The position numbers and the translations under genes are program-made. From contig NC_049984.1 in the NCBI RefSeq assembly GCF_000003815.2, positions 9,802,878 through 9,866,877 on the forward strand: a stretch of 64,000 bases of DNA, in the 5' to 3' direction. Shown in pieces: positions 4,541 through 34,809 of the stretch (its first letter is position 1; every line of letters begins with the position of its first letter). The notes beneath the pieces are model-generated. The model saw only the letters and a program-made list of their open reading frames with translations, was not told the DNA's origin and did not search any database. The DNA comes from Branchiostoma floridae. Lineage: Eukaryota; Chordata; Leptocardii; Amphioxiformes; Branchiostomatidae.

Positions 4541-7500
4541 ATGATAAGGATGACCGTCAAGCTCTTCATTACCACGATAGTGTTCGTACTGATCATGCTG
4601 GGTGCAATGTACCATTACGTGCAACCCGGAAAATCTCCAATCGCTCGAAAGACTGGGGGAACAGCGCCCCCAGATGAGGACGATAAGAACAACAGCCAGT
4701 TGTCGAGATGGTGGCGAAAGTTCCAGGGAGACGGGGAACCAGTGCAACTGCAAGCAAACAAAAGTGCAGCAGTGACCACTCCGCCTGTAGTGGTACCCAC
4801 TCCGCCTGTAGTGGTACAGCCCACATGTAAGAGAATATGGCAGAAGGGACGGTCGTCATGGTTTGATAGCAGGTTTGATGACAACATCAGGCCTGTCTGG
4901 TCACGGGCTAACATAGAGCTGCCTGCTGACGCCAGGAAGTGGTGGATGGTAAGGGTTGTCTCTTTCCATAGAACAGGTTACATACATATGTTACAGTGGT
5001 ACTGAGTAGGATCTGATGTGTATAATGTTACATAGTAACGCAGAACCATGTTGGTATGCTAGTGTTATTGGATAGATACCAAGTTTGAGGAGGAGGAGGA
5101 CAAAAATGTTCCCATGCTGATGATGCAAGATATATCCTGAAGTTGAAATATCCTGAAGGATAAGATTTAGTGCCATAAATCAGTAAGAAAACTCAACAGT
5201 CTGAAAATAGTGTATGAAGTATGAACTATGATCGTTATCATCTTCTGTTGCAGAGTCTTCAGAGCCACAAGGACGAGGACCCCGCCCCCCTCCTGAATGC
5301 GTTATTTGATATGGGAGCACCAGATGTCGACCCGTGGGCCAGCCGTAACCTCACAGGGTGTCTCCGCTGCGCTGTGGTGGGCAACTCTGGCAACCTCAGG
5401 CAGTCCAACTATGGGGAGGAGATTGATGGATATGACCTGATCTTCAGGTGTGGTTCCAATCGTTGATCATAAAAGTTGGAAGCTTGCACACATGGTTAGG
5501 TTCTTGGAAATATATACAATAACATAATATAGAATCATTTGTGGAGACATGCATGTATACACTAGTGGTGGGTACCGGTACATACAAAACTGTTTTTCTT
5601 GTCGGACTGATCCGGAAAAAAACAGACCTGAAAAAAATCAGCTGACCAAATTTTGGACCTATTAGGGAATGAATAGATTATACCGGCAGGCATTCAAATG
5701 CTTTGGGGCTTACAGGTCCAGGAAAATGGAAGAGCTCAGAGCAGAGGAGAGATGTTAGACATTTTACTACGTTTCTCCAGTCAAAAACTTGGTCCAAAAC
5801 AGAGGCAGTTAGTGTTGTTTACTTGAAGATGGCTATTGTGGCTCTCGCCCCTTTACAAGTTTTATTTCACAGATAATAAGGTTCAGGTTCGAACCTGGAC
5901 CTGGTCATCTGGACATGTTCCGTACGGTAGTGTAAATATTACCTATTCGCTCTATGTACAGAATGAACGATGCCCCTACTAAGGGTTGGGAGAAGGATGT
6001 CGGCCACAGAACCACCCACCATTTCATGTACCCAGAGAGCGCCACAGACCTGCCAGATGACGTCAGCTTCGTCCTGCTGAACTTCAAACCTCTAGATCTC
6101 AAATGGATGAAGACTTCCCTCACAGATGGGTCCATTACTCGGTAAGAGGGGTGAAATCTGCTTGTCTCTGGAACTTTATGTGGGGACATCGAAAGTCTTG
6201 TTCATACTCCTTGTGCATGTAACTTATGAGGACAAATTTTCCTTGATTTTCTAAGAAAACAGAGCCCCCGTCATTTTTATCTCTGGCAATAATGCACAGA
6301 ATACGAGTAATCAGAAGAATGATGTCACTGTAATGCTGTAGTAGGAAGTAAAGCAGGTCCAAAGATTAGTTTATTAGTAATGATTAGCTAATTCAATATC
6401 AATTAGTAATCTAATTCTTTTGCCTACCATTCTTTGAATACCCCAAATGTTAACAAAAAAGCAACAATCGCTTGTATAAGATTATTTTGTTACACCATTT
6501 TCACCCATGACAAGATTCTTGACCATTTGACTCTTTGTTGTTTCAGGACATGGACTCGTGTAAAAGGCAGAATTAAAGCAAACAAAACAAAGGTCAGAAA
6601 TGCTTTGCTTACATTTTCTAGTCAACACTTTTACTTTTTAGTAGGGTCCTTTGAGAAAACAACTCTTCTAAGGGTAGACTTGCTTGAATTTGTTGTACCA
6701 TTTTGCTGTACCTGACAATGTTGAAATTAGTGACATGTACTATGATGTAGTAGATCTAGAGTTTGCTAAACTGCAAAAGAAAACATATGCATGGAAAAAT
6801 GCTTTACTTGCCATTTACCTTTTGATAATTTTCATTCAGAATTCATCTCCCTTTATAGCCCTACATTTACATATTGTGGTTGACTGAGGCTTTTGCATGA
6901 AAATCGAAATAATTTCCTTCAACAGATTCTGGTGTACAATCCTGCGTTCTTCAAATACGTTAACGACAAGTGGACGGAGCATCATGGGAGGTATTCCTCC
7001 ACAGGCAGCCTGGTTATCCTGTTTGCAGTACACGTGTGCGATGAGGTAAGTCGAAAAGTTGAAGCAGTATATTTTCCCTCAATGGTAAGTAAGGAGGTTT
7101 GATGCAAAATTTGTATACAGTATGTTGTATACAGTACAAAATTTGTATACAGTATGTTGGTGCATGCAGTCTTCAGATTTGGCTATGTGTTACAAAGGAA
7201 CTGAGGAGAATTTAACATACCTACTAATTTCCACATTTTGACTTCTTTCTATTCATTGGGGGAGGTACCTGCTTGATGGTGATGGCATTTTGAGTAGGTT
7301 TCAAACTCCACAGATGACTACTCAGGCGGCATGACAACATTAACACAAGTACATGTAGATAGGCCAGAATGTTGAAGGTTAGGTATAACATTGCTGCTGT
7401 ACAATGAAGCTCACTTTTCCCTGTTTTTTGGTTGTGTGCAGCAGCACTTTCACCCTCTGCATAATAACTTCTGTTGTATACATACAGCACACAGTTGTTA

Positions 7501-8781
7501 CATGAGTGGGTCCTTTGTATAGTGAAGGTCTAGTGCATGGAACATGCACATAATTAATAGGCTCAACAGAATGCACATGTACGTAGCTATTCCTCTGCCT
7601 GCTAGCTTCTGTTGTACACAGCACACACTTAGTACATGGGTGGGTCCTTTGTACGGCGAAGGTCTAGTGCATGGAACATGCACATAATAGGCTCAGCACC
7701 ATAGCTATTCCATTAAAAAACATAGCATAAATTTGAACAAGTCTAGTTGAGCGAGTTGGAGCATTCATGTGCACCATTTTTCTGTGACTTCAGACAAACA
7801 TACAAGACAAAACATCTGACAGTTTCCCCTCCAATGTATATCTCCAGGTGGACGTGTATGGATTTGGAGCAGATGTGAATGGCCACTGGAATCATTACTA
7901 TGAATCTTCTCATGTAGAATCAAAAAATGTCAGTTATGAGGCCACTGTCCTGGCCAAGTTGGGATCAGAAGGGATAGTGAGAGTACACAGAAGGGATGCA
8001 GGCTCTCTGTAGACTGCTGCAAACTGCTTGTTGCATCACGTGTGTAGGTTCACTGGCCAGCCTTCTAACGCCTGTGCTTCTGGTGGTGGTGGCTACTATG
8101 GCAACTGCTTTCTAATAATTCTTTGGCACCCTTTGGTTCCTTTACTTACCAGAATGCCTTGTTATTATGTTTCCTTCCCCATACCTTGTATAAAGTGATA
8201 GAAAATATATTGTTTTTGTTCTCTTCTCCTTGATGGTCCTTTTGTTTAACCACACAGTCTTTTAACCAACAGTTTTCCAGAAGGTTTTGAAAGACTACAT
8301 TGCACTTGTTATAGTTTTTTTAGGTGTACCTTCTTGATAGATATTTTGACATGTGCCATGGTAACGAAAATAATGATTGGAAAGCTCAATTGTTAGAAAC
8401 ATGTAACCTTGTAAGGTCAATAGCATACACACAGTCTTGTATGTAAGTTCCACTAATCCTCATGGTGAAAAAAATGGTATAGTCTACTGGGTTCCTGTGC
8501 ATATTGTAGGTGTATCTTGACAACAATTAACTGATCTAGTTAGAAATGTGTAAATGTGAAGTGAAATTCTGTATTTCTCATATCTGTTCCTACAGGTGGA
8601 TGTGTATGGTTATGGAGCTGACAAACTTGGGAACTGGAACCACTACTGGACCACGCATTACTCTGGAGCAGCCCACCGGTCCACTGGGGTGCACGACTCC
8701 GAATTCGAACGAGTCCTCCTGGAGAAACTGCAGTCAGAGGGGATCATCAAAATCCACAGAGGCAATGCAGCTAACAAGTAA
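4541..8781 (+). CDS. Beta-galactoside alpha-2,3-sialyltransferase, ST3Gal1/2-like, gene A
   Basis: A type II Golgi enzyme expected to move sialic acid from CMP-Neu5Ac to Gal-beta1,3-GalNAc. Exons are 4541-4948, 5254-5447, 5962-6141, 6547-6592, 6926-7045, then either 7848-8012 (370 aa) or 8596-8781 (377 aa). All phases match. Residues ~7-25 form the membrane anchor; a variable stem with a duplicated TPPVVV word follows. Conserved marks are [16 protein letters not shown], sialylmotif L ([14 protein letters not shown] to THHFMYPES), sialylmotif S ([16 protein letters not shown], continuing VDVYGYGAD), motif III HYW, and motif VS (HDSEFE, only in the 8596 exon). Length is close to human ST3GAL1/2 (340/350 aa). 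It is the first of three tandem paralogues. Assignment to the ST3Gal1/2 group is strong; acceptor specificity is inferred. Confidence 0.93.
5566..5925. repeat. Interspersed repeat family R1, copy 2
   Basis: Starts near gggtaccggtacatacaaaa, contains tgtttttcttgtcgg and a run like ggaaaaaaacagacctg, and ends with ggttcgaacctggacctggt. It aligns by eye with 1190-1625 and 53722-54035. It lies in intron 2 of sialyltransferase A. Confidence 0.5.
7471..7710. repeat. Two-copy tandem duplication (~134 bp) in intron 5 of gene A
   Basis: The words tgggtcctttgta and gaaggtctagtgcatggaac recur about 134 bases apart (7507 and 7641), with the surrounding sequence also repeated. It is noncoding and lies between exon 5 and the first alternative last exon. 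Confidence 0.6.
7848..8012 (+). other. Alternative last exon a of sialyltransferase A (motif VS histidine absent)
   Basis: After a good acceptor (tatctccag) the exon reads in phase from exon 5. It encodes [19 protein letters not shown], i.e. the second half of sialylmotif S and a motif III-like HYY, and ends in TAG after 54 residues. Where other ST3Gal proteins have HxxxxE (motif VS, general base His), this exon has KNVSYE, so lysine replaces histidine. The reading frame is intact. Either it makes a catalytically altered isoform or it is a duplicated exon drifting under weak constraint. No AATAAA is visible just downstream. Confidence 0.75.
8596..8781 (+). other. Alternative last exon b of sialyltransferase A (canonical)
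   Basis: The acceptor is ttcctacag. The 61-residue exon begins [18 protein letters not shown], keeps motif VS as HDSEFE and ends GNAANK before TAA at 8779-8781. It matches the last exons of genes B and C in length and sequence. The stop codon overlaps a donor-like caagtaaag, so splicing to a distant 3' exon (acceptor near 10180) is possible. Confidence 0.85.
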
Positions 8782-14764: not shown

Positions 14765-17700
14765 ATGTTAAGGATGAATTTAAGGCACCCTGTTACCACG
14801 GCACTGTTTGTACTGACTATGGTTGGCGTAATGTACTATTTCGTGCAACCCCGGAAGTCACCCCTTGGCCTTGCACAAAGCAAGGAGAGAACTGCGCCCC
14901 TTGATTTAGATAAAGTGAGTGACAACCGGTTCTTAGGAACGGAAGAACGAGTATCAGTCGACAAAATTGCAGCAGGGACCTCTCGAGTACAGCCCACTTG
15001 TAAGAGAATATGGCAGAAGGGACGGTCGTCATGGTTTGATAGCAGGTTTGATGACAACATCAGGCCTGTCTGGTCACGGGCTAACATAGAGCTGCCTGCT
15101 GACGCCAGGAAGTGGTGGATGGTAAGGGTTGTCTCTTAAAGTTTGCACTTTGATAGAACAAGTTGTACGTATGCTTCAAGCGTATGCTTGTATGGTAACA
15201 TTTTGCTAGAGTAAGGGCTTTTTCGTTTGTTTGTTGAAAGTTATTTATTCATGAGAAGCTCTAATCGGCCTGCAGGCCGCTTTTCATTGAGGTCAGGGTC
15301 AGATGAACATACAACAGAGCAAGGAGGTTCCCCTTTTTCAAACTCCTTGAACAGAGGTAAAGGTCAATTGTCCGAAAAGAATGTTGTGTGTTGTTCTTTT
15401 TTCTAATCTATGCTCTGACTAACACCCCATCATTAGCAGCTGTGCTGAACTTAATTACTTTGTTCTCATAAATGATGTGTGAACTGATTATTACCATAAG
15501 CTATCTCAACTCTTTCTACAGGCTATCCAGGAGAGCAAGGACGAGGACCCCGCCCCCCTCCTGACTGCATTATTTGACATAGGAGCACCAGATGTCGACC
15601 CGTGGGCCAGCCGTAACCTCACAGAGTGTCTCCGCTGCGCTGTGGTGGGCAACTCTGGCAACCTCAGGCAGTCCAACTATGGGGAGGAGATCGATGGATA
15701 TGACTTGATCTTCAGGTGCGCTTGCCTATATGTATACTAGTCATTAGCGATGGGTGTTTATCATTGCTTCTCGAATATAAGCTGTATGGAAATGACCTGC
15801 TCTATTCCATTATAGGACTATTGCAACATGTGATATTTGTAACTGATGATGATGTGATGATGATGATGATATTTGTAACTGAGAAAGAGAAGAATGTTGA
15901 TAGATATTATGCAAATTAGATAGAATATGCATGATTAATGAGAAAATATCATAATCCCACTGCCGTAGTTTTGTACAGGTGAACATCATTGAACATTAAT
16001 TATGCAATTGAGGAGCATTGATTATGCAATTGAGGAACTAATTTGCATAAAAAATGACACAATCAATGCACCGGTTGCAAAGGTGATGTCAAATCGTTTA
16101 GTAAAGATATGGGGTCGTCACTGTCATCAAGATCAAAGATAGAAAAATGACGTTAGTCACTCATACAGTGTTGTAAAGATAATGAAAAGCTCCCATTGTG
16201 TTTTGCAACTGTGGAGTTCACAAACCCACACATACACAAATCCATTGAGAGTCAAAAATGACCTTTGCATTGACTCCTTGTACAGAATGAACGGTGCCCC
16301 TACTCAGGGCTGGGAGAAGGATGTCGGCCACAGAACCACCCACCATTTCATGTACCCAGAGAGCGCCATAGACTTGTCAGATGACGTCAGCTTTGTACTG
16401 ATGAACTTCAAACCTCTAGATCTCAAATGGATGAAGACTGCACTTACAGATGGGTCCATTACTTGGTAAAGGTTACTTGAAAATTTTAAGTGGACCTCTG
16501 AGTTAGTTATTGGAAGTCTTCGCACTGCTTTTCTCCTTCCTCTTGCAACATACAAACAATGCCATTTGTGCCAGTCGTTAACAGTCTTTTATATCACTGC
16601 ATGCTTACATGACTGGTAGCCTACTGTTTCGATATCCTCACTCGTGGAAAGTCTTTTGACAATTTTAACTCTATGTTTCAGGACATACATGACAGTGAGA
16701 AGTAGAATTCAAACGAATAAATCAAAGGTAAGAAATGTTACATTAATTTCAGGACATTGAATCGTAGGAACCCCATCAGTTTAATATGGAGGACAAGTTT
16801 GGTAGGAAACCAATAAAGACTTCTACTTATATTTACTCTACAATCAATAAACAATCAAACTTCACCTTAACTTGAAAGTTCATCTGTGTTGGTAAGAGTC
16901 ATTCTTGAATTAGTTTATTGTAATATCCAACACACCAACACACCAACTTTTATGTTATAATAGATATTACAGTTCAAAACTAGTTCAAAAACAAACTTCC
17001 CCTTATTACAATTGGTAAAGATTTAAGTTCTATGACTTCATTGTCTATTTCAACCATAACATAGGTAGAGAGAATGATGAAATACATGTACAAACTATAC
17101 TAAATTGCAAAAGAAAAATTCTTTGCTGCATTGAAAAACATCCTGCTTCATTTATCATTCACATTCACTTAGTGTATAGAGACTACTAGTATTTTTCAGA
17201 TTCATTCCCTTCGAACGGATTATCTCTCATCATATTCTGCTGTTTAACCGTGTTTCCAGCATACGAATGAACAACATAATTCTTTAGTAACGTTACCTAG
17301 CTGTATATGGAAATCAACGTATAATATATATGATTACCATCCACAGATTCTAGTGTACAATCCTGCTTTCGTTAAGTACATCCATGACAGGTGGACGGAG
17401 CGTCACGCGATTTACCCATCCACAGGAAGCTTAGTGGTCCTTTTTGCAGTACACGTGTGTGATGAGGTAAGAAAAACATAACTGAAAGCCAAAGATGTTT
17501 TGTCCTAAAGGTTGCATTCCACATTGACGTAATATCGTGGACACTACATATCGTGTTAAAATAATTGCGAGCCAGATATGAGTTGAAGGTATGGGGCTAG
17601 CTGAAGTAATGGTGGTATTTGTTTTACTTGCAGTATATATTCACAAAGCGATCCCATTCTTGCCTATACGTTTTATGTTATCGTTTGTATATCTGCCATG

Positions 17701-18254
17701 CTGTGCCCTAATATCATTATATGATCAGTGTGAGTGAGAACGGCGCACTGTATTGTATGTATCTTTGCAATATATAAACCTTATGGCTGCAATACTATAG
17801 ATGTTGTGTGGTGATCTGCATAGTCACGAGCTATTACATTTTATTTGCGTAATATGTCACAAGGTGGTTGTCAGGTAAAGATGTACATTTTTATTTTTGT
17901 TGGTAGACACGTTTTTTTATTTGATGACAACGTTTGTGTACCTGAACATTTGAGGAATATAGAACAGCGAGAGCTTGTGTAAAGCTATTGGTGAAAGAGC
18001 CATGCCTTTTTCTATGTTGACTAGTGGTTCATGGAGACCTTTGGAAACTGTTTTGTCTATTATTTCAGGTGGACGTGTATGGTTACGGAGCTGACAAACA
18101 CGGAATCTGGGACCACTACTGGGACCCGTCGCACATCGGACAGACCATCGGACAGACCATCGGAGTCCACGACTCCTCATTTGAACAGCTTCTCCTTCAG
18201 AAACTGCAATTGGAGGGGATCATCAAAATCCACAGAGGCAATGCAGATCACTAG
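14765..18254 (+). CDS. Beta-galactoside alpha-2,3-sialyltransferase, ST3Gal1/2-like, gene B
   Basis: Second tandem paralogue; 360 aa from exons 14765-15121, 15522-15715, 16286-16465, 16682-16727, 17347-17466 and 18069-18254, with phases identical to gene A. The membrane anchor ([16 protein letters not shown]) follows a short cytoplasmic tail. Motif L includes [14 protein letters not shown] and THHFMYPES; motif S is [16 protein letters not shown] then VDVYGYGAD; motif III is DHYW; motif VS is HDSSFE. All catalytic signatures are present, so an active Golgi enzyme is expected. The last exon holds an in-frame 12-bp duplication that repeats IGQT. Upstream, a donor at 14278 (gccaggtatgt) and an acceptor before 14483 outline an untranslated first exon, also seen at gene C. 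The exact acceptor is inferred. Confidence 0.93.
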
Positions 18255-20489: not shown

Positions 20490-23400
20490 ATGTTAATGGC
20501 GAAGCTAAGGCGCCCCGGTACTACTAAGGTAGTGTTTGCTCTGACCATCGTGGGCGCAGTGTACTATTTCGTGCAACCGTGTAAATGCCCCCTTGGCCCT
20601 GCACGAAGCACGGAAAGCATTGCACCCCATAATGTAGACAAAGAGAGTGAAAACCAGTTGTTAAGAGAGGTTCGGGGAGACGAAGACCCAGTCTTAATCG
20701 GCAAAAGTGCAGCAGTGACCACTTCTGAATCAGTACAGCCCACATGTAAGAGAATATGGCAGAAGGGACGGTCGTCATGGTTTGATAGCAGGTTTGATGA
20801 CAACATCAGGCCTGTCTGGTCACGGGCTAACATAGAGCTGCCTGCTGACGCCAGGACGTGGTGGATGGTAAGGATGGCATCTTTGCATTTGATAGAACAG
20901 TTTGTACGTAACATGCTTCAACTTTAAGATTGTTTGGTTACAGTTTGCTGGAGTAAGGACTGTTTCGTTGAACATATTAAGATTGAATGTTAGTGTGCAT
21001 GAACGGACGAATGAAACCTAGTATAGAAAGGGTAATGATCATGACCTTGTCCAAGTTCAGCGGCCTGAACTGAATAAGTAGTGAAATAAAAAAAAATAAC
21101 CCCAAGCTCTTTTGACCTGGAAGAGAATTCACCAGTCTGAAAAGGGTGTAGTTGTGTGCTGTTTACATATTGTATTAATCCATCTTACATCTTCCCCATG
21201 TGCAGGCTGATAGCATCGTCTTTCTCATTCTTATTCCCATTATTACTATTTCCCATTCAAGTCTGTCTAGTCTTCTGCCCAATCCGTACTTTGTCAGACT
21301 GAGTGTCTCTTCGATGTTGTCCCTCCATCATTTCCTGGGCCTACAAAGGGGGCGCTTCCCATTTGGCTTGTATTTGAAACTTTTTCTTGGGAATTCTTCC
21401 CCCATTGTAACCTGGGTAACACCCCGGGGTAGTCAGCTCGCTCCTATGTTCGCTTCTTCTACTGGAACAGCAGTGAAGCTACTATATATAGTGTATGATG
21501 AATTTCAGAGCGAGAAGCGACTGTATATAGTGCATGATAAATGTCAGAGCGAGAAGCGACTGTATATAGTGAATGATGAATGTCAGAGCGAGAAGCGACT
21601 GTATATAGTGTATGATGAATGTCAGAGCTAGAAGCGACTGTATAAAGTGCGTAATTAACGCCGGAGCGAATTAGTTTCCGGATGGTACCCAGGCTACCGT
21701 CACTGATCATTACCATAGAATATCTCAACTATTTCTGCAGAATCTGGTTGCTCAAAGGAGCAATCAAAGGATCAAGGACGAGGACCCCGCCCCCCTCCTG
21801 ACTGCGTTATTTGACATAGGAGCACCAGATGTCGACCCGTGGGCCAGCCGTAACCTCACAGGGTGTCTCCGCTGCGCTGTGGTGGGCAACTCTGGCAACC
21901 TCAGGCAGTCCAACTATGGGGAGGAGATTGATGGGTATGACTTGATCCTCAGGTATGCTTGCATATACATGTATACTTAGCGATGTGTGTTTAGTATTGC
22001 TTCTTGAATATATATAAAACAGGTACATGTATCTTCAAATTGCACTCAGTCTGGTATCTATACAAAACATGCATTACGTTAATCACTCTGCCATGTAAAT
22101 GTTGTAGAAATAATTAAAGTGAAAAGCTTCTATTATGTTTGGAAAGAATTGTGGATTCACAAACACATATACATATATACATACAACAAATCCACTGAGA
22201 GTGGTGTAAATGACGTATTTTTACAGACTAAACGGTGCCCCTACTAAGGGTTGGGAGAAGGATGTCGGTCACAGAACCACCCACCATTTCATGTACCCAG
22301 AGAGTTCCATAGACCTACCAGATGACGTCAGCTTTGTACTGGTGAACTTCAAACCTCTAGATGTCAAATGGATGAAGACTGCTGTTACAGATGGGTCTAT
22401 TACTCGGTAAAGGTTACCTAAAGTGACTCCGAACTAGAATTTGGAAGTCTTCGCACTGTATTGCTCCTCCCTCTTGCAACATGCAAACAAGGCAACAGCT
22501 GTCAGCCTTTTACAGAACAGAACAATGTTCTTGTCTTTTCCATCACTTATGAAGACCGGACTTAGCCTAATGTTCCGTTAGCATCTGACAATTCTGACGA
22601 TTCTCTTTGTTTCAGGACATGGACGTCGGTGAAAAGTAGAATTCAAACGAATAAATCAAAGGTAAGAAATGTTACATTTATGGTTGATAGTTTTCAGGAT
22701 ATTTGATCGTATGAAAACCTTTCACTCCGATATGGAAGACATGTTTGGTAGGATAAATAAGGGAGACTTATATCAATGGTAAAACATATAGATTAGTCAC
22801 TCCACATATTAACTAATCATAAAGCTCTTTGATTTTATCATCTATTTCATCAATCTACACATATGTGAGCCGATGATGAAATAAAACATTACTAAATCGC
22901 AGAAGAAAACTTCTCTGCTGCATTGAAAAACAGCCGGCTTCATATGCAATTTTTTCCTTCGAACTGGTTGTCCGTTTCCAGCAATATGAATAATTTTGCA
23001 GCCTTCTATATGAAACTCATCAACATGTAAATATGATTGCCCTCCACAGATTCTGGTGTACAATCCTGCGTTTTTTAAGTATGTCTATGACAAGTGGACG
23101 GAGCGTCAGGGACTCTGGCCATCCACGGGCACCTTAGTGGTCATGTTTGCAGTCCACGTGTGTGATGAGGTAAGAGAAACTTTCTTGATAGCTGAAGTTA
23201 TTTCGTCCTAAACATTCGACTCCACACAGCTGACGTAGCCACTACACAGTGAATATGAATAGGCGAGATATGGGTTGAAGGAATGTGGCTAGCCTAACCA
23301 AGGAGGTTTTTTTAACCTCCTTGGCCTAACTAACGGCTAGGATTATGTTTTACTTACATTATCTCTTTTATAATCATTAGCAAGACTGTTCCATTGACGT

Positions 23401-25014
23401 CTACATACTTCATTTTATCGATTGTATGTCTGCCTTGTGTTGTCGTTAATGCAAGCAGTACGCTTGAACAAGACACCACTGATGACTTTGATCGATGCTT
23501 TACATGCCGTTGTGTTGAGATCTACATTGTCACAAAAGGTTATATAGTTTACGTGCATCATGTGTCATGTGTCATAAGGAATTGTCACGTAAAGCCCCGG
23601 TCACAAAGCGCGTACGATTCCTTCCGATGGACTATTTCGCATATCGTACGATGAGCGCAGTACATCGCAAGAAAATCGTAAGCATCGCAAGCCATCGCAA
23701 CGCATCGGATGGTGTTCAAAATTTTTCCAGCGTCGCAAGATTTTTCACTTGTGTCTCTTCTGTATAGCCGTCTGACCGCTTTTGTGCTTCTTTAACCAAC
23801 AAAATGTGGACATAGCTGTTAAATACCTTCCTATAATATCTCTAACTGTAAAAATAAATTTAAAAAGACCATGACAACAAGAGTATTAGAAGCAAAAGTT
23901 CAAATCAAGCGTGAGTACTGGTATGGTTATCTCGGCCTGCTTGCCGGCTCTTCGTGTCAGGCTCTTTCGAAGATCGTATCATGATATGCTATCAACAAAA
24001 ATATGCCATCATACAAAATCATATGATAAGCATTATATCATATATATTTCCGACTCATAGAGCCTGCCTTTATGTTCGAGTTGTCCCCATGGTTATTACG
24101 ATTATGGTAAACTGACCCAAGACCGACGAGAGCTGAGATTTGATCTAATTATAAACTCACGTGCATGAAGCGATCAAACAATTGTCTGCATCACCTGTGC
24201 GGGGCGCGCTGTTCTCTTGTTGCGACTGTGGCAGTTGCGACTGATATATTTCCCCTTTTCGTCAATATCGACAATATCAGGGAAAACTGAAACCATCACA
24301 ACATGCTAAAAAATCATAAATCTATAACTTCATCAGTAGACAAAAATTGCCGTAATGAACTCTGCTATGGGGGCAAATAAAATCTTACGACGATAGCGAA
24401 ATTTTGAACATGTTCAAAATCCATTTCAGCTCTATTTTTCGCCATACGACGCTCCCCGATTTACTATGATTCACTGCGATTGACACAGGCACGCTCTTAT
24501 GACCTCATCGTACGATGCACTACGCGCTTTGTGACCACGGCTTTATATACTTAAACCATTGCTTCCGATTTTCTTCCGACTTACGTCGCACTGCGCTTAT
24601 CCTGCGCATCGGAAGGAATCGCAAGGAATCGTACGCGCTTTGTGACCGGGGCTTTAAGATGTAACGTTATATATATATATTTGACGGTGTTTGTATACAC
24701 GTCTGTGTATCAGTGAAAGTTTATGCAAAGCTATTGGTGAAAGAGCAATGCTTTTTCCTATATTGACAAGAGGGTCTGGAAGGCATTTTGGAAACTACTT
24801 TTTTTATTTTAGAAACTTGTTTTGCTATCTGTCACTTCAGGTGGACGTATATGGTTACGGAGCGGATATACATGGAAAATGGAACCACTACTGGACCACG
24901 ACTTACATGGGACAGTCCATCGGGATCCACAACACCACATATGAACATCTTCTCCTTCAGAAATTACAATCGGAGGGGATCGTTCAAATCCATCTAGGCA
25001 ATGCAAATCATTAA
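20490..25014 (+). CDS. Beta-galactoside alpha-2,3-sialyltransferase, ST3Gal1/2-like, gene C
   Basis: Third tandem paralogue; 369 aa from exons 20490-20867, 21741-21952, 22227-22406, 22616-22661, 23050-23169 and 24841-25014. The ATG at 20490 is preferred over 20448 because [19 protein letters not shown] aligns with the starts of A and B. Exon 2 carries six extra residues at its 5' end ([15 protein letters not shown]). Motif L reads DLILRLNGAP where A and B have DLIFRMN. Motif S ([25 protein letters not shown]), motif III HYW and motif VS (HNTTYE) are intact. It is probably active. Exon 5 reads [10 protein letters not shown] where A has [10 protein letters not shown]. Intron 5 holds a 1.07-kb DNA transposon and intron 1 a 39-bp minisatellite. 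Confidence 0.92.
21481..21660. repeat. 39-bp minisatellite, about 4.5 copies
   Basis: Units begin at 21481, 21520, 21559, 21598 and 21637 with core actgtatatagtg, then atgatgaatgtcagag, then cgagaagcg. The fifth unit is decayed. It lies in intron 1 of gene C. The repeat is open in one frame only because 39 is a multiple of three. Confidence 0.85.
23590..24656. mobile_element. Non-autonomous DNA transposon with long terminal inverted repeats
   Basis: The left end (aagccccggtcacaaagcgc, continuing gtacgattcctt) is matched inverted at the right end (ending gcgctttgtgaccggggctt). A TA dinucleotide flanks each side, as for TA-targeting transposons. Internal sub-repeats of tcgcaag/atcgtacg are present. 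A second, inner 3'-type end occurs near 24500-24546, suggesting nesting or a duplicated end. No transposase frame is present. It lies in intron 5 of gene C. Confidence 0.75.
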
Positions 25015-34499: not shown

Positions 34500-34809
34500 N
34501 NNNNNNNNNNNNNNNNNNNNNNNNNNNNNNNNNNNNNNNNNNNNNNNNNNNNNNNNNNNNNNNNNNNNNNNNNNNNNNNNNNNNNNNNNNNNNNNNNNNN
34601 NNNNNNNNNNNNNNNNNNNNNNNNNNNNNNNNNNNNNNNNNNNNNNNNNNNNNNNNNNNNNNNNNNNNNNNNNNNNNNNNNNNNNNNNNNNNNNNNNNNN
34701 NNNNNNNNNNNNNNNNNNNNNNNNNNNNNNNNNNNNNNNNNNNNNNNNNNNNNNNNNNNNNNNNNNNNNNNNNNNNNNNNNNNNNNNNNNNNNNNNNNNN
34801 NNNNNNNNN
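34500..34809. other. Assembly gap (310 N)
   Basis: Unsequenced bases. Translations through them are meaningless. The left flank is an inverted copy of sequence 400 bp upstream, which may explain the assembly break. Confidence 0.99.

Follow-up and report, generated by a model that had tools for sequence, protein, structure and literature searches.

Two candidate alternative last exons in a lancelet ST3Gal1/2-type sialyltransferase gene, one of them without the motif VS histidine

We analyzed a 64,000-nucleotide stretch of the Branchiostoma floridae genome, hereafter the window (NC_049984.1, our contig C6:9802878-9866877, in an assembly of 513,431,437 bp and 431 contigs). It carries three tandem sialyltransferase genes on the plus strand, A, B and C, and gene A has two candidate last exons, which we call exon a and exon b. 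In our in-frame model of gene A, exon 1 (4541..4948) supplies the start, the stem and a hydrophobic stretch that by eye is the membrane anchor, and ends at the donor GTAAGG. Exon 2 (5254..5447) encodes the bulk of sialylmotif L, which is involved in donor binding, and exon 3 (5962..6141) encodes the remainder of this motif and part of the sequence after it. The frame is continued by exon 4 (6547..6592) and by exon 5 (6926..7045), which encodes sialylmotif S as far as HVCDE and ends at the donor GAG/GTAAGT (the slash marks the splice junction).

From exon 5 the reading frame continues in phase into either last exon, yielding a protein of 370 amino acids with exon a (7848..8012, stop TAG) or 377 amino acids with the canonical exon b (8596..8781, stop TAA). 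The two share the upstream exon, and each has its own acceptor and its own terminal stop, the arrangement predicted for alternative last exons. Motif S is restored across both junctions (HVCDE/VDVYG). Downstream of it, exon b encodes motif III as HYWT and motif VS as HDSEFE, and exon a encodes motif III as HYYE, a 6-residue loop, and KNVSYE at the place of motif VS. A preliminary description of this DNA had proposed both exons; its coordinates proved exact to the base, the five shared exons join either one in frame, and the spliced reading confirmed the rebuilt motif S and both versions of motif VS. Its statement that genes B and C have only one last exon also stands, as both genes read through in frame and a tblastn of the window at relaxed settings, with exon a and exon b as queries, returned no convincing further copy (best other match E=0.22).

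Both isoforms exceed the cut-off of the sialyltransferase family model PF00777 (isoform b: 250 bits, E=3.6e-74, profile positions 2-272; isoform a: 238.4 bits). Because exon a matches PF00777 by itself (26.5 bits, E=5.2e-6, cut-off 23), it is more than a chance open frame. Exon a also has a weak, sub-cut-off match to an EML beta-propeller model. The best solved structure for both isoforms is pig ST3Gal1 (2wnb; E=2.1e-90 for b and 4e-82 for a), and the next family among solved GT29 enzymes is ST6GalNAc2 (6apj; E=1.5e-17 for b and 6.8e-18 for a). By its sequence, gene A is an ST3Gal1/2-type (GR1) GT29 sialyltransferase, with ST3Gal1 the closest of the solved GT29 enzymes. The group name GR1, which covers ST3Gal1, ST3Gal2 and ST3Gal8, is taken from PMC5000683. 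In a residue map against pig ST3Gal1, isoform b carries motifs L, S, III and VS, including the VS histidine and glutamate. By sequence isoform a belongs to GT29 as well, but it is not predicted to be a working sialyltransferase.

In human ST3Gal1 (hST3Gal1) numbering, the eight contact positions Q105, N147, S148, N170, Y191, 230, Y266 and T269, which include the donor-site residues, are all encoded by shared exons and are therefore identical in both isoforms. Position 230 is W in gene A and Y in pig ST3Gal1. Exon a retains W297, H299 and Y300, followed by Y301 and E302, and hence preserves motif III with the catalytic acid His and the Tyr in the form HYYE. On the other hand, nothing in exon a aligns to positions 310, 311, 312 and 315, and position 316, the place of the VS histidine, is K. 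Among 18 columns that are invariant in pig ST3Gal1, exon b and the last exons of genes B and C, exon a retains 13 and changes 5. A shifted register that would give exon a a VS histidine was ruled out, as the only other histidine between motif III and the VS glutamate sits two residues past HYYE. In the human enzyme, H316 is the catalytic base and H299 the catalytic acid; alanine at 299, 300 or 316 (e.g., H316A) inactivates it, and V315A by itself strongly lowers its activity (PMC6884586). The proposal that exon a encodes a genuine GT29 C-terminus without the VS histidine is borne out, and in the closest studied enzyme this residue is essential (H316A is inactive; PMC6884586). Isoform a would keep the donor side and the catalytic acid but lack the base and the residues ahead of it.

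We then surveyed GT29 C-terminal exons across the assembly. The VS histidine is present in 59 of 60 others, or in 62 of 63 when exon b and the last exons of B and C are counted. The 60 comprise 55 picked by eye among the matches listed (those reaching at least profile position 268; 142 of 425 candidates scored) and 5 from a second list of 29 matches, and several of them are close paralogues and hence not independent. Of the 56 stretches behind the first 55, the remaining one, L069, was left out as non-GT29; read by eye, motif VS of L062 is HSIPEE. The single exception is L067, with Asp where the VS histidine is expected (DNYPVE, also read by eye). L067 and L070 belong to a putative GT29 gene (C18:12057706-12057912, minus strand) whose C-terminal exon lacks the VS histidine. 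An N-terminal part of 205 amino acids and a C-terminal part of 130 amino acids are open there in the same frame. Some 200 bp containing seven stops, which may be an intron, separate the two, and the listed open frame of 404 amino acids is not supported by plain reading. The genome shows a great expansion of the family as a whole: the exon-level matches to PF00777 number at least 151, including clusters on C5, C12 and C19 among others.

The stretch between motifs III and VS has 6 residues in exon a, 13 in exon b, 14 in gene B and 10 in gene C. The preliminary description mentioned neither this 7-residue difference between exons a and b nor the retention of motif III in exon a. Among other GT29 exons of the genome, the shortest true loop has 7 residues and occurs in 18 of the 52 measured by script, a count that leaves out L022, L039 and L067; the loop of L044 is 11 by eye. 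In this genome's GT29 exons a short loop therefore looks ordinary, while a lysine at the VS base does not. An assembly-wide protein search with exon a gave five matches and no second exon a: the query itself, its neighbor exon b, the single last exons of genes B and C, and a stretch on C12 (E=1.15). The possibility that exon a is one of many dispersed copies was rejected; the C12 match (L069) is by eye not GT29 and resembles a beta-propeller protein.

The age of exon a and the constraint on it were evaluated with a codon model, protein trees and simulations, for which alignments were made by hand with the lysine set under the VS histidine. Exon a shares 45-53% protein identity with the last exons of A (exon b), B and C, with saturated silent sites (proportion of differing silent sites, pS, 0.72-0.78; of replacement sites, pN, 0.31-0.39). 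The silent distance (dS) among the three other last exons is 0.45-0.94. Over 52 aligned codons, exon a and gene C differ at 67 of 156 bases and agree at 26 of 52 residues. When gene C codons were evolved neutrally to the same base distance, none of 20,000 simulations preserved that many residues (the highest count was 24), and 7.9% of the 20,000 remained stop-free. The ratio of replacement to silent rates (omega) on the exon-a branch is 0.29-0.35, and omega=1 fits worse on three topologies (twice the log-likelihood difference 4.46, 7.2 and 6.89; p=0.035, 0.007 and 0.009), so that the dN/dS check proposed in the preliminary description came out below 1. Given that 45-53% of aligned residues still match despite saturation at silent sites, and that no simulation started from gene C stayed as similar to it, the majority of exon-a divergence arose under protein constraint.

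A recent origin of exon a by copying of exon b was rejected: silent sites between the two are saturated, and the three protein trees that pair them are rejected by the approximately unbiased (AU) test (p=0.026, 0.0005 and 0.0004). The Shimodaira-Hasegawa (SH) test is weaker and does not reject the best of the three (p=0.18, against 0.03 for each of the others), and in four-sequence codon trees this pairing lies only 1.6 log-likelihood units under the best tree. In the best protein tree the partner of exon a is the gene C last exon, at a bootstrap of 66, but the AU confidence set holds 5 of 15 trees (4, 5, 7, 8 and 9). Two residues, F in GFGAD and E in motif III, are common to exon a and pig ST3Gal1 but differ in exon b and in the last exons of genes B and C, a hint that the split is old.

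The splice signals were scored with rough matrices built from approximate frequencies, and poly(A) signals were scanned with eight hexamers. The exon-5 donor is the strongest of the five donors scored (range 2.8-7.6). The exon-a acceptor scores 3.6, a value equaled or exceeded by 2.7% of 3662 plus-strand AGs, and lies above one other acceptor (6926, at -1.2). Past exon a there are weak hexamers resembling poly(A) signals (8189..8209, plus strand; TATAAA at 8189 and AATATA at 8204), which are no proof of use; the sequence beyond them is rich in T and G. Donor-like sites past the exon-a stop, at 8411 and 8443, score 2.0 and 2.5, compared with 2.8 for the weakest real donor. From these signals, exon a is somewhat likelier to be a terminal exon than an internal, stop-bearing one. 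A short way upstream of exon a, intron 5 also holds two direct repeat units, each about 110 bp long (7454-7568 and 7592-7698, 81.7% identical).

Downstream of gene A lie its two tandem paralogues, each with six exons. Gene B (14765..18254, plus strand) is in frame throughout and has a single last exon (18069-18254) with motif VS as HDSSFE. In gene C (20490..25014, plus strand), exon 2 starts at 21741 and the single last exon (24841-25014) has HNTTYE. Where exon 1 runs into intron 1 (4814-4964, 14987-15137 and 20733-20888), A and B are 99.3% identical over 151 bp and A and C 96.2%. Identity between the genes is 91-93% in exons 2 and 3 and 74-83% in exons 5 and 6, with a range of 65-87% over exons 4-6. 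The array thus seems to exchange sequence, the donor-binding half being kept alike and the acceptor-binding half diversifying. By silent divergence exon a would be older than the split of A, B and C, but this silent clock is unreliable because of the apparent exchange among the three genes. Unequal exchange between copies that left an extra last exon would be a natural origin for exon a, and leaves its present-day use undecided. At two positions that contact substrate in ST3Gal1, gene C itself carries W: at 266, where pig ST3Gal1, A and B have Y, and at 230, where A also has W. The loop ahead of its motif VS is three residues shorter than that of exon b; together with W266 and W230, this may indicate a different acceptor preference. 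Elsewhere in the window there is a run of N at 34500-34809, which may be an assembly gap.

We propose that exon a arose long ago as an alternative last exon, was shaped under protein constraint and encodes a dead, competing isoform, and give this reading a probability of roughly 0.4. Replacing exon b after exon 5, exon a would leave the N-terminal anchor and stem unchanged, together with the whole of motif L and the greater part of motif S. Placement in the Golgi is predicted. With N147, S148, N170 and Y191 kept, isoform a would be expected to fold and bind CMP-sialic acid; with lysine for the base H316 and the residues ahead of it lost, it should be unable to transfer sialic acid. It would then act as a decoy that competes for donor, acceptor or a partner in a dimer, damping sialylation by the exon-b isoform and by the products of genes B and C. 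The splicing decision would be made through acceptor choice coupled with polyadenylation past exon a. The preliminary description had suggested a regulatory or lectin-like isoform. A regulatory role fits the inactive competitor reportedly produced by a His-to-Lys change in ST8SiaIV (PMC12682141), but a lectin-like one finds no particular support; if anything, the shortened acceptor-side loop argues against binding of the same acceptor.

Several observations weigh against a decoy. The phmmer alignment of isoform a with pig ST3Gal1 stops at residue 337, right after HYYE, leaving the last 33 residues unaligned, while isoform b aligns almost to its end. The measured constraint averages over a long branch, so it may have acted before exon a came to its current position and need not still act there. 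Its GC content at third codon positions (GC3) is 0.418, closer to that of the introns (0.34-0.40 GC) than to that of the shared exons and exon b (0.61) or the last exon of gene B (0.66); that of gene C is 0.50. Both exons had been credited with good acceptors, which is fair for exon b, but six of the seven other acceptors scored outrank that of exon a (5254, 5962, 6547, 8596, 18069 and 24841, at 4.5 to 7.4). Finally, the hexamer scan found neither AATAAA nor ATTAAA between exon a and exon b. A serious rival is an unused relic: a diverged gene copy would have been lost through unequal crossing-over or partial deletion, leaving its last exon in intron 5 of gene A, once constrained and now seldom or never spliced. 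The near-identity of A and B across the exon-1 donor into intron 1 is a sign of sequence exchange in the array, and the best protein tree places exon a beside the gene C last exon and not beside its neighbor, exon b. The intron-like GC3, the weakish acceptor and the degraded motif VS also fit a relic, and the share of neutral simulations that stayed open by chance means that a neutral phase following long constraint is compatible with the open frame. Against this, the acceptor, phase, frame and stop of exon a are all intact, its branch-average omega is below 1, and the 5 changed columns out of 18 are probably fewer than free decay would produce at such a distance. We consider a relic quite possible, at odds somewhat short of those for the decoy.

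Two further explanations grant exon a a use and differ on its product. If exon a reshapes the acceptor side of an active enzyme with altered acceptor or linkage, the lysine or another residue would serve as base. HYYE is a common form of motif III among the genome's GT29 exons read, and the frequency of 7-residue loops indicates that a short loop alone need not disable the enzyme. However, the histidine that exon a lacks is the family's base and is retained in nearly every other C-terminal exon read, the loop is one residue under the shortest true one, the sole other histidine between motif III and the VS glutamate is that two residues past HYYE, and the corresponding change reportedly inactivates ST8SiaIV (H331K; PMC12682141). 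Such activity seems very unlikely to us. Only slightly less improbable is an attenuation or poison exon, in which exon a leads to a truncated transcript or an unstable product and lowers the level of the enzyme, the encoded residues hardly mattering. Exon a is suitably placed ahead of the canonical exon, and with the donor-like sites past its stop it could conceivably be spliced in as an internal exon that carries a stop. These sites nevertheless score below all five real donors of the gene, 8443 narrowly, and protein-level conservation of exon a would be unexpected if only a stop were needed.

If exon a is used, it would provide a natural case of a Golgi glycosyltransferase switched off, or turned on its own kind, through the choice of its last exon, and a simple handle on tuning sialylation without transcriptional change. 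The tandem array around it, which seemingly exchanges its donor-binding half, shows how new C-termini can arise. In its fullest form, gene A would hold a long-lived genetic switch between a working chordate sialyltransferase and a dead decoy, with nature having matched the experimenters' His-to-Lys change; we hold this larger claim tentatively and think it rather unlikely. In the accessible passages of the open literature on sialyltransferases, to which most subscription journals do not belong, we found no alternative last exon replacing motif VS and no dead form made by splicing. Passages on GT29 in B. floridae concern other groups or are general (PMC5000683 and PMC2564942), and none of them treats exon a. 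Alternative last exons and catalytically dead relatives are each known kinds, and from this limited survey their combination within GT29 looks new.

Compared with vertebrate ST3Gal1, ST3Gal2 and ST3Gal8, both isoforms have PF00777 and motifs L, S and III in common with these enzymes, and isoform b also shares motif VS; isoform a, by contrast, lacks the VS histidine and the residues immediately preceding it. Tandem st3gal1 copies occur in zebrafish as well (PMC5000683). The strongest precedent for the proposed decoy, by analogy, is the H331K form of ST8SiaIV, which is reported to be catalytically inactive, to compete with active ST8SiaIV and to block polysialylation of NCAM (PMC12682141). H331 is the VS base of that enzyme (PMC8433944), and the substitution is the same His-to-Lys change as in isoform a. 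Unlike isoform a, however, H331K is a man-made point mutant in another subfamily, whereas isoform a occurs in nature, combines the lysine with a shorter loop and further changes, and is inactive only by prediction. GnT1IP-L (MGAT4D) is itself a glycosyltransferase homologue, of a family other than GT29. It is a Golgi inhibitor of active MGAT1 that acts through its luminal domain, much as proposed for isoform a, but is encoded by a separate gene rather than by an alternative exon (PMC4572887). Within GT29, plants have natural relatives that also lack motif VS; these differ from isoform a in being separate genes and in lacking motif III too, and for plant GT29-like proteins a role in the transfer of Kdo or Kdh has been proposed (PMC5811610).

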